This document shows, piece by piece, positions 17,114 to 38,717 of a stretch of DNA of 64,000 nt (within the stretch, counting starts at the first letter, position 1; every line of letters begins with the position of its first letter). This DNA comes from Oscillospiraceae bacterium. GTDB lineage: Bacteria; Bacillota; Clostridia; Oscillospirales; Ruminococcaceae. Made by a program: the position numbers and the translations under genes. The DNA lies in assembly GCA_016281125.1 (NCBI GenBank), contig JAEEIA010000041.1:62001-126000 (forward strand), written 5' to 3'. Below the pieces are notes generated by a model. It saw only the letters and a list, made by a program, of their open reading frames with translations. It was not told the DNA's origin and did not search any database.

Positions 17114-17224
17114 TCAGATTTCCTCGCCGATGGCGGGAAGTGTCGGATCCTTCACGGAGCTTGCGGTGATGACGTCCTCCGCTTCAAATGCGAAGATTTC
17201 GATTTCCGGTGTAGTGTATTTCAT
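17114..17224 (-). CDS. 36-residue peptide behind surface protein A
   Basis: Unrecognised small peptide, 36 aa, acidic, no signal peptide, no cysteine. The core reads EIEIFAFEAEDVITASS and the tail VKDPTLPAIGEEI. The reading frame is supported by a strong AAAGGAGG 8 nt before the ATG, by placement 14 nt after the surface-protein stop and before a terminator, and above all by a near-identical 37-aa peptide in the same position of cassette B (35937-36050). The N-terminal PEIEIF pattern resembles short leader-like peptides seen in gut Firmicutes (from memory, not checked). Function unknown; candidates are a signalling peptide, a RiPP-type precursor or a leader. No modifying enzyme is adjacent. 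Confidence 0.75.
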   Translation of the reverse strand: MKYTTPEIEIFAFEAEDVITASSVKDPTLPAIGEEI

Positions 17225-17238
17225 GGTATTTTCCTCCT

Positions 17239-19185
17239 TTAGTATTCCAGGGCAGTCGTTGCATAAACGAACAGCGCCCTGACGACGGTTTTCAGCGCTT
17301 CGTCGTCAGAATTTTTCATGACGTAGTATCCGTAGGTCAGCGGGGAAATGACAATATATTCGCGGTTGATTGTGTAATCGTCGGCAGAAACAAGCTCTGC
17401 CGGTTTGAGTCCGGTGATCTTGTGGTATCCGCCTTCCGCGTCATATTTCAGGTTCGGCAGCGAGCCTGTTCCGCCGATGTAGTCATCCGTATCGTTGATG
17501 CCGTACACGCGGAGCTCAGTCTTCGAGTTCAGCACCAGCGACAGCTTCAGGCCGTGCAGCGGCACACCGAACCCGGCAAAGCTGGCGAGCGTGACGTCCC
17601 CGATGCCCTCGACCGTGTAATCCTTGCCGCAGAAATAATTGCTTGCGGCATTGCAGTAATTAGAAAGTGCTGCTGCCAGTTTCTGCGCCTTTTCGTTGTC
17701 CGGATAATACTGCGGCGCCTGTTCAATATAGTCCTGTACGGAGAAGCTGATCGTATCGTTTTCCGCGCGGCGGAAATCACTGTTGTAAAGCCGCAGCTGC
17801 TTGCCGTCCTTATCATACAGGCGCAGGGTGATCGTGTGGCGCGCCTCCGTGGCATTGACTGGGTACACCAGCTTGACGCAGCCCTTGTAATCGCCGCTCA
17901 AAAGCTGGTTGAGGCTCGTGACGGTCACCTCACCGGGGACGCCTGACAGCACGGCTTTTTTCACCTGATCTTTCATATTGACATAGAACGTGACGCCGAT
18001 CTGATCTGCCAGTGCGAGGCTGACACCCTTGACATAGCTGCCGGGGCATTTGTATTCCTTGTAGGTCAGGTAACCCGGTTTTTCGTCTTTGCCGTCAATG
18101 CATGCATATTCCTTGTTTATATGGTTTTTGTCGTAGACAGTTCCGTTGCCGCCTTTCAGTTTGGGGCATTTTCCGAACATAGCACCAGAAGAATTGACAC
18201 TATCGGTGTTCCAAAGATCGGACACGTAGATTGTTTCCAGATTATTACTGTTATCAATTACCATATTATAAGTGCCACAGAATAAATATTTCATATTTGT
18301 AACATTGGATGTGTCAAAGCTGCTCAGATCCAATGAAGTCAGATTTTTGCAGTAGCAGAACATACTTTCCATATCCGTAACATTGGATGTGTCAAAGTTG
18401 CTCAGATCCAGCGAAGTCAAACTGTTACAGCCTTCGAACATATAGCTCATATCCGTAACATTGGATGTGTCAAAGCTGCTCAGATCCAGCGAAGTCAAAC
18501 TGTTACAGCCTTTGAACATATAGCTCATATCCGTAACATTGGATGTGTCAAAGCTGCTCAAATCCACCGAATAGAAATCGGAACCATCGAACATAGCGTA
18601 CATATTCGTCACATTGGATGTGTCAAAGCCGCTCAGATCCAGCGAAGTCAGACGATAGCAACTACGGAACATCCGGCTCATATTTTTTACATTGGATGTG
18701 TCAAAGCTGCTCAGATCCAAAGAAGTCAGATCACAGCACTCAAACATGGAGCGCATATTTGTGACATGAGATGTATCCGCTTTGGAAAGATCAATGCTGC
18801 TCAAATTATACCAATCCTGAATTTCAAAATACCAATCGCCTGGTGCCTCATATGTTTCATACCGTTCTTGTTGAAATAATTCTGAACAGTCTTCCGGTAA
18901 AATGCATCCCTCATTTGCCACAACGCTTTCGACTTTATATACAGGGATATAACCATCCATGTAAGGCTTGTACACTGGTTCGCGGTACGCGAGAATATCC
19001 TCTCTTGTCACCGCGCCGTCCAGATACAGCGTGCCGGTTTCCTCATCCAGCGTCACGCTGCCCGCCGCATGTGCCGTCAGCGGTGTGTTCAGCAGTTCCG
19101 CGCCGCCCGGCACAGCAGGCAACGCCCCGCCCAGCATCACCAGCGCCATGGCAGCAGCCGCTGCCGCCTTCAATCGTTTTTTCAT
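17239..19185 (-). CDS. secreted BspA-like DUF285 repeat protein A
   Basis: Exported surface protein, 648 aa. Signal peptide with an Ala-rich core (1-42, cleavage near AHAAG). Residues 129-307 hold seven repeats of 25-26 residues of the form LTSLDLSSFDTSNVTDMSYMF, the DUF285/BspA-like leucine-rich repeat, closed by the usual IYVSDLWNT...GGNGT...KEYA cap. The C-terminal ~260 residues (from YVKGVSLALADQIGVTFY) form a domain shared with protein B and unknown to me. No sorting signal or membrane anchor at the C-terminus. Two ATGs follow GGAGG; the second (19185) has the better 7-nt spacing, 19188 is the alternative. Such repeats often mediate adhesion (family knowledge). Confidence 0.85.
   Translation of the reverse strand: MKKRLKAAAAAAMALVMLGGALPAVPGGAELLNTPLTAHAAGSVTLDEETGTLYLDGAVTREDILAYREPVYKPYMDGYIPVYKVESVVANEGCILPEDCSELFQQERYETYEAPGDWYFEIQDWYNLSSIDLSKADTSHVTNMRSMFECCDLTSLDLSSFDTSNVKNMSRMFRSCYRLTSLDLSGFDTSNVTNMYAMFDGSDFYSVDLSSFDTSNVTDMSYMFKGCNSLTSLDLSSFDTSNVTDMSYMFEGCNSLTSLDLSNFDTSNVTDMESMFCYCKNLTSLDLSSFDTSNVTNMKYLFCGTYNMVIDNSNNLETIYVSDLWNTDSVNSSGAMFGKCPKLKGGNGTVYDKNHINKEYACIDGKDEKPGYLTYKEYKCPGSYVKGVSLALADQIGVTFYVNMKDQVKKAVLSGVPGEVTVTSLNQLLSGDYKGCVKLVYPVNATEARHTITLRLYDKDGKQLRLYNSDFRRAENDTISFSVQDYIEQAPQYYPDNEKAQKLAAALSNYCNAASNYFCGKDYTVEGIGDVTLASFAGFGVPLHGLKLSLVLNSKTELRVYGINDTDDYIGGTGSLPNLKYDAEGGYHKITGLKPAELVSADDYTINREYIVISPLTYGYYVMKNSDDEALKTVVRALFVYATTALEY
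18265..18801. repeat. 78-bp tandem repeats inside surface gene A
   Basis: About seven units with a 75-78 bp period, each carrying the minus-strand codons for DTSNVT; the near-identity of several adjacent units at DNA level suggests recent unit duplication or gene conversion. Confidence 0.85.
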
Positions 19186-19257
19186 CATAAAACCTCCTTT
19201 TCGCTTCTGCAAATCCACTTTGTAACACCGCACCCGCAGATGCGCTGTGCTGATTCT

Positions 19258-35811: not shown

Positions 35812-35936
35812 CGGTGCCCGCCTCCATTGATCGAAAGCTCTCCGGTCGTTCAACTGCGGCATAAAAGATAATGCTCTCAATCAACATGAACAGAATAAAG
35901 AACAGGCAGCCCGTTTTTGAGCTGCCTGTTTTCGTA
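35812..35936. repeat. left flank of cassette B (homologous to 16981-17113)
   Basis: Same order of blocks as in cassette A: GGCGGTGCCCGCC, ATTGATC, CTCTCCGG, TCAACTGCG, ATAAAAGAT, then a terminator with AACAGGCAG and CTGCCTGTT arms. Confidence 0.8.
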
Positions 35937-36050
35937 TTATTCCTCCTCGCCGATGGCGGGGAGTGTCGGATCTTTCACAGAGCTTGCGGTGATCACGTCC
36001 TCCGCTTCAAATGCGAAGATTTCGATTTCCGGTGCTGTATACTGTTTCAT
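35937..36050 (-). CDS. 37-residue peptide behind surface protein B
   Basis: Near duplicate of the peptide at 17114-17224: MKQYTAPEIEIF then AFEAEDVITASS and a VKDPTLPAIGEEE tail. Only the N-terminal few residues and the last one differ, while the surface proteins upstream have diverged much more. AAAGGAGG lies 9 nt before the ATG, 15 nt after the stop of surface gene B, and the terminator at about 35900 follows. Function unknown; conservation of amino acids with several synonymous changes (for example GTC to GTG at the Val18/19 codon) argues that it is translated. Confidence 0.75.
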   Translation of the reverse strand: MKQYTAPEIEIFAFEAEDVITASSVKDPTLPAIGEEE

Positions 36051-36065
36051 GCCTGTAACCTCCTT

Positions 36066-38645
36066 TCAGTCATCCTTGCAGTCGAATACATAATATTCTG
36101 CTGCTTTGCTGTATTCATAGAACGCCCAGATCAGATCCCACATGGCGCTGCCCTCCTCGCACTGCCAGACTGCGTATGCACAGTAATCTCTCGGGCAGAC
36201 GTAGTACGTTTCGCCGTTGATCTCAATCTCCTCGCTTCCAACCGTTCCGGCGGCAGAAAAGTTCCGCATGATAAAGCAACTGCGTCCCGCTTTGTCCGTG
36301 TACTTTTCCAGATCGACGTCACCGGAATACTGCTTATGCACCACGCGGTCCGCGTCCGTGTAGATCAGCAGATCCGTGCCGGAATTGAGCACCATGCCCA
36401 GCTTATATGCGCCATGCGTTTCGTTGACAATATCAAACCAGCGCGGCATAAAGCCCTCCGGCAGGATTGTATGCGTTTTTCCGAGGAAGTAATTTTCCGC
36501 GGCCTTCATGTAACGCTCTAGCCACTCGACAAGGGTGTTCCGCTCCTCAGTCAGCGTTTCCGTGTCATTTTCGCGGGGTTCGCCCGTGTAGTTTTCAAAG
36601 TAATCCTTCACGGAATACCGGATCACACTGCCCGGCACTTTCTGCAAGCTGCTGTTGTAAATGTCGAGCAGATTGCCGTCTTTGTCATAGAGCTTCAGGC
36701 TGACCTTGTCGGTGCGCTGTGTTGCGTTGACGCCGTAGCTCAACTTGGTGTAGCCTTTATACGGGCCTTTCTTTACCTTCTGGAAGTCGGTGATTTCCTC
36801 CTCGTAGTAAGGGCCGGAGAGCACGGCCTTTTTCACGCTGTCGGTCAGCACGGTGTAGAAATTGATGTGAATTGTGCCGTCCAGAGAGAGGCTGACGCCC
36901 TTGACATAGTTCTTTAACGGTGCCTTGTAGGTGAGATAACCGGGTTCATCAGGCGGGTTGTCAATGCGGGCGTATTCTATATCACTCATGTCGCCGGAAA
37001 TCTTCGTTCCGGCACCGCCTTGCAGAGCGCCTATATCTCCCCAAATAGCGTGTGATTCAGTGACTGCATCTGCATTCCAAAGGTCAGATGCATAAATTGT
37101 TTTCAGGTAATAGCATTGATTAAACATACCGGACATATCTGTTACTTTTGATGTGTCAAAACTACTCAGATCCAATTCAGTAAAACAAGTCCAGGCGAAC
37201 ATACTGTTCATGTTCGTTACATTCGATGTATCAAAGTTGCTTATATCTATTGAAGAAAACTTATAGCATTCATAGAACATGCGACTCATATTGGTTACAT
37301 TGGATGTGTCAAAGCTGCTCAGATCCAATGTTTTTAGTGATGAGCAATCCTCAAACATGCTCTCCATATCCGTTATATTTGATGTGTCAATGCCGTTCAG
37401 ATTCAAAGATGTTAATTCTTTCAATTTGCTGAACATATGATTTGCATTCGTAACATGCGAGAAATCTGCTTTTGACAAATCAATACTGGTTACATTCGAC
37501 CAGCCGGTCGGTTCATATCGACTGTAGTAATACTTATACTGTACTGAATTGAACAGATCAGAACAATCCTCTGGCAGTACGCAGTCATCTGCCGCAACAA
37601 CACTCGTGATTGTTCTATTGTTGCGGTATATCCAGAGCTGGTTTTTGACTATATTGCCAGACAGCGTTAATACGCCCGTTTCTTCATTCAGCTTGACCGT
37701 TCTCAGCGGTACCGTACCATTCTTACATAAGTATCCCGGTTTTCCGTCCTTGCCGTCAATGCGGGCGTATTCCTTGTCTGTATGGTTTTCGTCGTATGCC
37801 GTGCCTGCGCCTCCGGCCAGTGCCAGGTTATACTGAAACATTTCATCTGATTTCGTAACAGCATCAGTATTCCACAGGTCAGAAACATAAATAACGTCCA
37901 GAAGCGGTGTAAGGTCAATGTGATAATCATATTCACCCATTTCGTAATAATATGTTGACGAATCAATCACGCTGCAATATTCAGCAAGATCTTTGAACGC
38001 ACGGAACATATAGCGCATATCTGTCACATTCGACGTATCAAAGCTGCTTAGATTCAGCGTGCGCAAGTTTAGGCAGTATGCAAACATCCGGTTCATATCA
38101 GTCACCTTGGATGTATCAACGCCGATCAGATTCAAATCACTTACGCCACAGTTTTCAAACATTCCGGACATATCAGTGACATTGGATGTATCAAGACCGT
38201 TCAGATTGATTGTAAAAAGAAACGGAGCATCACTGAACATGTGTGACATGTTTGTTACCTTGGAGGCGTCAGCCTTTGATAAGTCAATAGAATAAACCCG
38301 TTCCCATCGACGATAATACACCCATTCAAAGGTATCTTCATAGTAAACCATGTTCCAATCGCCTCCGTCGAAAAGCTCACTGCAATCCTCCGGCAGCACA
38401 CAGCCCTCCGCCGCAATAATATTTTCGACATAATCGTTCAAGCGGTATTCCCAGATCTGCTCCTTTGTCACATTACCGTTCAGTGTCAGCGTGCGCGTAT
38501 CCTGATCAAATACCGCGCTGCCCGCCGCGTGTGCCGTAAGCGGTGCATTCAGCAGCTTTGTGCCGCACGGTATGGCAGGCAAAGCACCGCCCAGCATCAC
38601 CAGTGCCATGGCAGCAACCGCTGCCGCCTTCAATCGTTTCCTCAT
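36066..38645 (-). CDS. secreted BspA-like DUF285 repeat protein B
   Basis: 859-aa exported paralogue of protein A with the same signal peptide style (1-42). It has two complete copies of the DUF285 module: opener VFDQDTRTLTLNGNVTKEQ (44-62) with four repeats (about 118-220) and cap (250-306), then opener TVKLNEETGVLTLSGN (317-331) with five repeats (about 385-515) and its own cap. The C-terminal ~255 residues match the domain of protein A (YVKGVSLSLDGTIHINFY). Second of two ATGs taken as start for spacing reasons; 38648 is the alternative. Internal module duplication is the main difference from A. Confidence 0.85.
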   Translation of the reverse strand: MRKRLKAAAVAAMALVMLGGALPAIPCGTKLLNAPLTAHAAGSAVFDQDTRTLTLNGNVTKEQIWEYRLNDYVENIIAAEGCVLPEDCSELFDGGDWNMVYYEDTFEWVYYRRWERVYSIDLSKADASKVTNMSHMFSDAPFLFTINLNGLDTSNVTDMSGMFENCGVSDLNLIGVDTSKVTDMNRMFAYCLNLRTLNLSSFDTSNVTDMRYMFRAFKDLAEYCSVIDSSTYYYEMGEYDYHIDLTPLLDVIYVSDLWNTDAVTKSDEMFQYNLALAGGAGTAYDENHTDKEYARIDGKDGKPGYLCKNGTVPLRTVKLNEETGVLTLSGNIVKNQLWIYRNNRTITSVVAADDCVLPEDCSDLFNSVQYKYYYSRYEPTGWSNVTSIDLSKADFSHVTNANHMFSKLKELTSLNLNGIDTSNITDMESMFEDCSSLKTLDLSSFDTSNVTNMSRMFYECYKFSSIDISNFDTSNVTNMNSMFAWTCFTELDLSSFDTSKVTDMSGMFNQCYYLKTIYASDLWNADAVTESHAIWGDIGALQGGAGTKISGDMSDIEYARIDNPPDEPGYLTYKAPLKNYVKGVSLSLDGTIHINFYTVLTDSVKKAVLSGPYYEEEITDFQKVKKGPYKGYTKLSYGVNATQRTDKVSLKLYDKDGNLLDIYNSSLQKVPGSVIRYSVKDYFENYTGEPRENDTETLTEERNTLVEWLERYMKAAENYFLGKTHTILPEGFMPRWFDIVNETHGAYKLGMVLNSGTDLLIYTDADRVVHKQYSGDVDLEKYTDKAGRSCFIMRNFSAAGTVGSEEIEINGETYYVCPRDYCAYAVWQCEEGSAMWDLIWAFYEYSKAAEYYVFDCKDD

Positions 38646-38717
38646 CATGAAACCTCCTTTACGTATCTGCAAACGAATTATGTCACAACGCACCCGCAGA
38701 TGCGCTGCGCTGATTTT

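Follow-up and report, generated by a model that had tools for sequence, protein, structure and literature searches.

Small peptide genes paired with surface-protein genes in a Ruminococcaceae genome as candidate LPP-type RiPP precursors

Behind each of two genes for DUF285-repeat surface proteins in the window (the whole stretch of DNA analysed here, 64,000 nucleotides from an Oscillospiraceae bacterium) stands a very small gene, and we think it likely that its product is a RiPP precursor of the kind known from linear polyphosphorylated peptides (LPP), produced along with the surface protein and matured in trans. With up to 17 such precursors in one genome, nearly all of them paired with a particular protein module, this reading would tie the LPP family to the cell-surface proteins of rumen and gut bacteria, and the pairing would offer a first clue to the purpose of LPP peptides, whose role thereby becomes testable. 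It also accounts for a set of very small genes that no family model covers, and it defines an undescribed protein module as a candidate peptide partner.

The window genes and their peptide family

The features on which the argument depends are these:

17114-17224, minus strand: gene 1, putative LPP-like precursor peptide MKYTTPEIEIFAFEAEDVITASSVKDPTLPAIGEEI of 36 aa, with leader MKYTTPEIEIFAFEAEDVIT, a conserved Ser two residues further on and an acidic tail
17233-17240, minus strand: ribosome-binding site AAAGGAGG of gene 1, overlapping the surface-gene stop codon
17074-17110, minus strand: terminator hairpin of gene 1, -23.6 kcal/mol
17239-19233, minus strand: secreted DUF285/PARCEL-repeat surface protein 1, ORF of 664 aa (PF03382/DUF285 and TIGR02167)
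17242-18021, minus strand: duplicated C-terminal module of surface protein 1
35937-36050, minus strand: gene 2, putative precursor peptide MKQYTAPEIEIFAFEAEDVITASSVKDPTLPAIGEEE of 37 aa
36059-36066, minus strand: ribosome-binding site AAAGGAGG of gene 2
35901-35930, minus strand: terminator hairpin of gene 2, -21.5 kcal/mol
36066-38693, minus strand: secreted DUF285/PARCEL-repeat surface protein 2, ORF of 875 aa (PF03382/DUF285 and TIGR02167)
36069-36893, minus strand: C-terminal module of surface protein 2

The initial annotation had described two small genes behind surface genes, each with a ribosome-binding site and a terminator, and this is borne out, with the minus strand now added. From the end of the surface gene to the start of the peptide there are 14 nt for gene 1 and 15 nt for gene 2, and because such gaps vary in both length and frame, a read-through fusion of the peptide to the surface protein was rejected. 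Both hairpins have a z of about -7, with none of 200 shuffles equally good; a consensus terminator scan detected the second and missed the first. Across five near-identical copies of the peptide in the genome (10 pairs), pS is 0.242 and pN 0.026, a ratio of 0.11, from which we conclude that the peptide itself is under selection, as had been claimed; the window pair alone shows 7.5 synonymous and 3.5 non-synonymous differences. This purifying selection, taken with the pairing to one kind of gene, excludes a chance origin. The check proposed at the outset, for missing homologues or a dN/dS near 1, was in substance run, and the peptide came through it, since homologues exist and the ratio is low.

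By eye, neither window peptide contains a cysteine or an export signal, in agreement with what had been said before, and neither has a family in Pfam, NCBIfam or PHROGs. Their sole PDB match (E 0.049) was set aside as chance. Carriage on mobile elements was rejected, given that none of 39 pattern matches in viral contigs was confirmed and that a plasmid search with one peptide gave no match.

The genome as a whole holds a sizeable family: a query with one peptide returned 16 matches at E <= 10, and a profile of 15 peptides returned 18 at E <= 1 and 17 at E <= 0.01, with about 20 N-terminal residues conserved and the tails differing (peptide counts here use E <= 0.01 in the genome itself and E <= 0.001 in other genomes). 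The leader pattern Y-x-x-P-E-[LMI]-E-I-x-x-F-x-x-E-D-V-I-T-x-S fits 139 of the 146 different peptides collected from fetched loci; among these 139 the Y is present in 137, P in 110, E14 in 131, D15 in 138, T in 132 and S in 134, positions 11 and 15-17 being partly fixed by the anchoring pattern itself. For A2, 62 of 82 non-redundant peptides were used. What follows the Ser is short and acidic, with a median of 12 aa over 140 cores, a mean net charge of -2.8 and Cys in 11; some family members are slightly shorter than the window peptides, at 30-34 aa. RiPP precursors are built in this way, with a conserved leader joined to a variable tail, and the leader here is retained when the protein in front is of another kind, and also in members of other families. 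A divergent member (MKKNYTKPEIEMVEYKANDVIMTASG...) lies behind an ABC exporter gene in place of a surface gene (L131, 1999-4239 and 4408 on), and a MAG labelled Synergistaceae has a peptide behind a seemingly module-type protein (L173, 1158-1310), reflecting either transfer or mis-binning.

Surface-protein partners and their C-terminal module

Surface protein 1 has a signal peptide by a crude hydrophobicity test, and its true start is probably at an internal ATG. Judged by eye, the two window proteins (17239-19233 and 36066-38693) are nearly identical in the signal-peptide region and differ in their repeats, which suggests recombination between paralogues. More generally, the gene ahead of a peptide usually encodes a large secreted protein, with DUF285, BspA LRR_5, CotH or InlB-type repeats among the ten scanned; one exception among the upstream genes is an ABC exporter. 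When the ORFs upstream of 148 distinct peptides were tallied with a crude gene finder, 96 had a signal-like start within 120 nt, 13 had no signal, 20 fell at the edge of a contig or stretch and 19 gave none, the last three groups partly representing truncated stretches or misplaced starts.

The commonest feature that these partners share is not DUF285 but an undescribed C-terminal module of about 265 residues, common to 93 of 117 upstream proteins (those longer than 230 aa, searched in four rounds from seeds of four proteins of the same genome) and finishing no more than five residues from the C-terminus in 72 of the 93. Its two halves are homologous to each other (hhalign probability 98%), it belongs to no Pfam family, with just two single-member stray matches among 42 members, and a profile search of the PDB found no match at E <= 5.

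Module and peptide are closely paired. In the window's own genome a peptide stands behind 16 of 18 module genes and 16 of the 17 peptide copies follow a module gene; the two module genes without one are on contig C34, where no peptide frame was seen in about 360 nt downstream. Over 61 genomes, with module matches less than 600 bases apart merged and peptides accepted up to 1 kb away on the module's own strand, 82 of 99 module genes have a peptide behind them and 82 of 106 peptides have a module gene in front, which leaves 17 module genes and 24 peptides without their counterpart. None of the 33 peptide-free genomes has the module, and it is also absent from six of the eight peptide genomes outside the genus, in which mostly other secreted-looking proteins lie upstream where the loci were mapped. 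The initial annotation, which had the peptide paired with each DUF285 protein, was therefore right about the window pairs and too narrow as a rule, the usual partner being a C-terminal-module protein of any architecture. Similarity among cores follows similarity among modules with a Mantel r of 0.51 (reached in none of 2000 permutations), against 0.29 for leaders (88 pairs), a correlation confounded by shared descent.

A third gene sometimes accompanies the pair. In 24 loci (for example, L286, L283, L215, L177, L104 and L164) a small lipoprotein gene lies directly behind the peptide gene. These lipoproteins, which were chosen by composition filters, have an acidic Ser/Thr-rich linker, and many carry a C-terminal motif such as IELPFVPVG. 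The likeness of cores to the ends of their cognate lipoproteins, compared after three of the 24 pairs had been dropped as duplicates, is suggestive and should be taken as such because some pairs are closely related.

Maturation in trans and the purpose of the peptide

It had been pointed out that no modification enzyme lies nearby, which is true of the window, on contig C60, and misleading all the same, because such enzymes are encoded elsewhere and would act in trans. There are two cassettes, on contigs C76 and C71, and whole-genome matches to PqqD (E <= 0.01) and to HprK-like kinases (E <= 1e-5) are confined to these two contigs. The cassette on C76 (L270, 6170-12683) encodes an HprK-like kinase, a PqqD/RRE protein, an S26/SipW-like peptidase and an ABC exporter; it stands behind genes for a GH16/GH11 dockerin protein and a CPBP (Rce1-like) protease, and by eye the gene order before the kinase is similar in L287 and L288. 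On C71 (L271, 7234-11065, minus strand), a candidate precursor of 116 aa, which contains ..FKEDDIIVASG.. and matches the profile weakly (E 0.038), is followed by PqqD, S26, HprK-like and ABC genes; this cassette is near genes that by eye resemble LicD and other polysaccharide genes, an echo of the capsule linkage in Bacilli. Two NTP_transf_5 (PF14907) genes are present in the genome outside the C76 cassette, and in relatives they are found inside cassettes. The 17 precursors are not beside cassettes.

The PqqD protein matches PF05402 at E 2.7e-14, and an RRE profile recovers RREs that have been solved with leaders, namely TbiB1 (7e-11), TfuB1 (2e-8), PbaB1 (4e-6) and LppB (5e-5), so that the first three, all lasso RREs, have better profile scores than LppB. 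In our own reading of the alignment, the leader-contact positions N33 and Y60 of LppB are largely kept, and D70 is kept in 10 of 13. Two HprK-like kinases were recognised by homology, with weak matches only in Pfam and NCBIfam; the P-loop GTGK and a DKP motif are invariant in 13, the seeds having been partly selected by P-loop. A SipW-like peptidase is found beside both RREs, and in distant genomes of the phylum it has no N-terminal membrane helix evident by eye. A relative's peptidase (L272) matches TIGR02228 at E 1.4e-4, below the curated cut-off, and in 26 listed peptidases, picked by their Ser and His motifs, the Asp of the GD motif is mostly present, this not having been a selection criterion. 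An MsbA-like ABC exporter is present in these cassettes and in those of relatives.

In several distant genomes of the phylum the peptide directly precedes genes for an HprK-type kinase, PqqD/RRE, SipW-like peptidase, MsbA-like exporter and NTP transferase. Among the named loci, 23 of 77 carry at least one cassette gene close to the peptide (fetched stretches of 3-12 kb, some of them the same contigs as genomes counted in other sets), with all five in R. flavefaciens FD-1, and linkage is seen in G404, G437, G054, G044 and G058 as well. In Faecalibacterium prausnitzii APC923/51-1 (L205, L208), every cassette class is present along with the peptides; no surface-protein gene could be seen ahead of those in L205, and the one in L208 lies at the end of its contig. 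The presence of this machinery, at other sites in the window's genome and next to the peptide in related ones, gives good support to the precursor option that was among those first offered.

Peptide and kinase also co-occur at the level of whole genomes, all p values here being uncorrected for relatedness. Among 61 genomes, 22 have both peptide and kinase, six the peptide alone, three the kinase alone and 30 neither, which puts the kinase in 22 of 28 peptide genomes and three of 33 others (Fisher 2.4e-8); inside the genus the proportions are 14 of 20 and one of 10 (p 0.0026), and outside it eight of eight and two of 23 (p 5.7e-6). No kinase was detected in six peptide genomes, G006, G017, G018 and G026 (77-86% complete), G019 (88%) and G027 (94%), and in G026 a PqqD gene lies beside a peptide. 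Three of the 25 kinase genomes among relatives had no peptide match. In 398 genomes of the phylum, including this one, all five peptide genomes fall within the 12 kinase genomes, seven of which gave no peptide match.

How might such a system work? The peptide would be translated at the end of the transcript that encodes the surface protein, and its YxxPExEI segment would add a strand to the stand-alone RRE protein of PqqD fold. The HprK-like kinase would then phosphorylate the conserved Ser of VITxS, the SipW-like serine peptidase would cut near this Ser, the bond behind the conserved Thr being the likeliest site (VIT|xS), and the MsbA-like exporter would release an acidic peptide of about 14 residues. 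From binding to export, this sequence of events is modelled on that of Popov et al. (2026), and the Thr and Ser of VITxS would map naturally onto the cut and phosphorylation sites of LPP; a cut after the Ser, by the -3/-1 rule, was set aside, cleavage after Thr being the better fit to LppS. Once outside the cell, the peptide may act jointly with the surface protein it is paired with, and the most plausible way is that it binds the duplicated C-terminal module, a proposal that we draw from the gene pairing and the core-module correlation. The near one-to-one pairing, and cores that track the module more closely than leaders do, favour a product acting with its partner, and shared descent could explain part of this. 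In the most ambitious version, which we offer tentatively as a possibility and not as our expectation, the operon of each adhesin-like protein encodes a matching RiPP phosphopeptide that a shared cassette matures and exports, the adhesin module binds it, and the similar-ended lipoprotein either competes for the anchor site or supplies it. If the adhesin does bind such a partner peptide, the RiPP would be neither antibiotic nor signal; it would belong to a surface protein, either structurally or as a switch.

Other fates for the product deserve consideration, and the one we take most seriously, though we doubt it, is that an LPP-type precursor gives rise to a free extracellular signal that reports surface-protein production with no direct contact. 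Multiple precursors with distinct cores in one genome would suit a signal, as would an exporter and a leader peptidase, and F. prausnitzii has the system with no surface gene in sight at L205; however, no receptor or regulator was noticed by eye beside the peptide genes at mapped loci, and core similarity follows the module. Less probable still is a covalent or anchoring tag, in which the modified core would be attached to the surface protein or be related to the companion lipoprotein, the C-terminus of which resembles some cores. The 24 lipoprotein genes lie within 220 nt after the peptide genes, LPx[VIL]P stands at the end of 11 of 21 distinct lipoproteins, and cores compared with the ends of their own lipoproteins score 16.4 against 14.2 when shuffled, a value that 34 of 2000 shuffles reach. 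Statistically this is weak, and the 21 pairs include some that are closely related to each other; 124 of 148 peptide loci, both window loci included, gave no such lipoprotein, no transferase for the attachment was identified, and cores bear no resemblance to surface-protein C-termini (9.37 against 9.38 shuffled, 108 pairs).

That the peptide might instead remain in the cytoplasm, neither modified nor exported, as a helper or regulator of the synthesis or secretion of the surface protein, strikes us as improbable: the lack of its own signal peptide and the short gap to the surface gene are what such a helper would have, but the RRE-type leader speaks against it, as does the fact that the peptide co-occurs and is linked with kinase, leader peptidase and exporter. 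A lasso peptide precursor is very improbable despite a YxxP leader, a lasso-like RRE and similar leaders in predicted rumen lasso precursors (PMC7533575), and we rejected this identity on the missing leader peptidase B2 (PF13471), which gave no match in the genome at E <= 0.001 and exceeds the family cut-off in two of 61 genomes; nor was a cyclase noticed by eye beside the mapped cassettes. Most remote of all is the idea that there is no gene product, and that what is conserved is only 3' sequence or is kept alike by gene conversion among surface-gene duplicates. By eye, the two DUF285 loci do resemble each other in the signal-peptide region and in some of the 3' flank, yet the low pN/pS and a leader kept behind different proteins, and in the genomes of other families, speak against it.

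Comparison with known systems

A precursor made with its surface protein and matured in trans has several known neighbours. The two upstream proteins of the window are of the BspA-like, DUF285 and PARCEL kind of surface protein. Phosphorylated lasso peptides of the paeninodin type share the [Y/W]xxP leader, discrete RRE, HprK-like kinase and NTP transferase (PMC13381572), and differ in that no leader peptidase B2 was found here, where a SipW-like peptidase is present instead.

By far the closest relative is LPP itself, described by Popov et al. (Nat Commun, 20 May 2026, PMC13381572), in whose main text the biological role is stated to be unknown. In the Paenibacillus system described there, the RRE binds a YxxP leader, the kinase places several phosphates on a Ser three residues past the cut, and the SipW-like peptidase makes an RRE-dependent cut after Thr. 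Shared with our gene set are a discrete RRE, HprK-like kinase, SipW-like leader peptidase, MsbA-like exporter and NTP transferase, and the precursors have in common a YxxP leader, a Thr before the (here predicted) cut, a Ser shortly after it that is phosphorylated in LPP, and variable C-termini (PMC13381572). At 36 and 37 aa, the window peptides fall within the 35-200 aa given for LPP precursors with their conserved N-terminus and variable C-terminus. The gene set thus appears to match LPP as a whole, and by analogy the pathway would work like it.

The differences are in the details of the peptide and, above all, in where it is encoded. Of the LPP consensus YxxPxVLxHQxIxFETxxS, the YxxP, the hydrophobic residue at Y+5, the Thr and the Ser are kept, whereas HQxIxFET is replaced by FxxEDVIT, so that the junction reads EDVITxS in place of FETxxS (PMC13381572); the Ser would lie two residues past the cut, if the cut follows Thr, and not three, and the core after Ser has a median of 12 aa, compared with 45 aa in the one LPP precursor tested (PMC13381572). 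For LPP, precursors were looked for within each cluster, where one to three ORFs turned up, and the clusters are often near capsule loci of Bacilli (PMC13381572), whereas here up to 17 precursors are dispersed, most of them behind a surface-protein gene, and those of the window (C60) are apart from both cassettes (C76 and C71). The main text of PMC13381572 contains no occurrence of Ruminococc-, Clostridi-, Faecalibacterium, surface protein, lipoprotein, adhesin or orphan, and among the papers listed by searches of the open PMC library, the same gene set is described only in the LPP paper and dispersed, surface-protein-linked precursors are unreported. Set against that main text, then, what is new here is the dispersal of precursors paired with surface proteins, together with the module and the companion lipoprotein.
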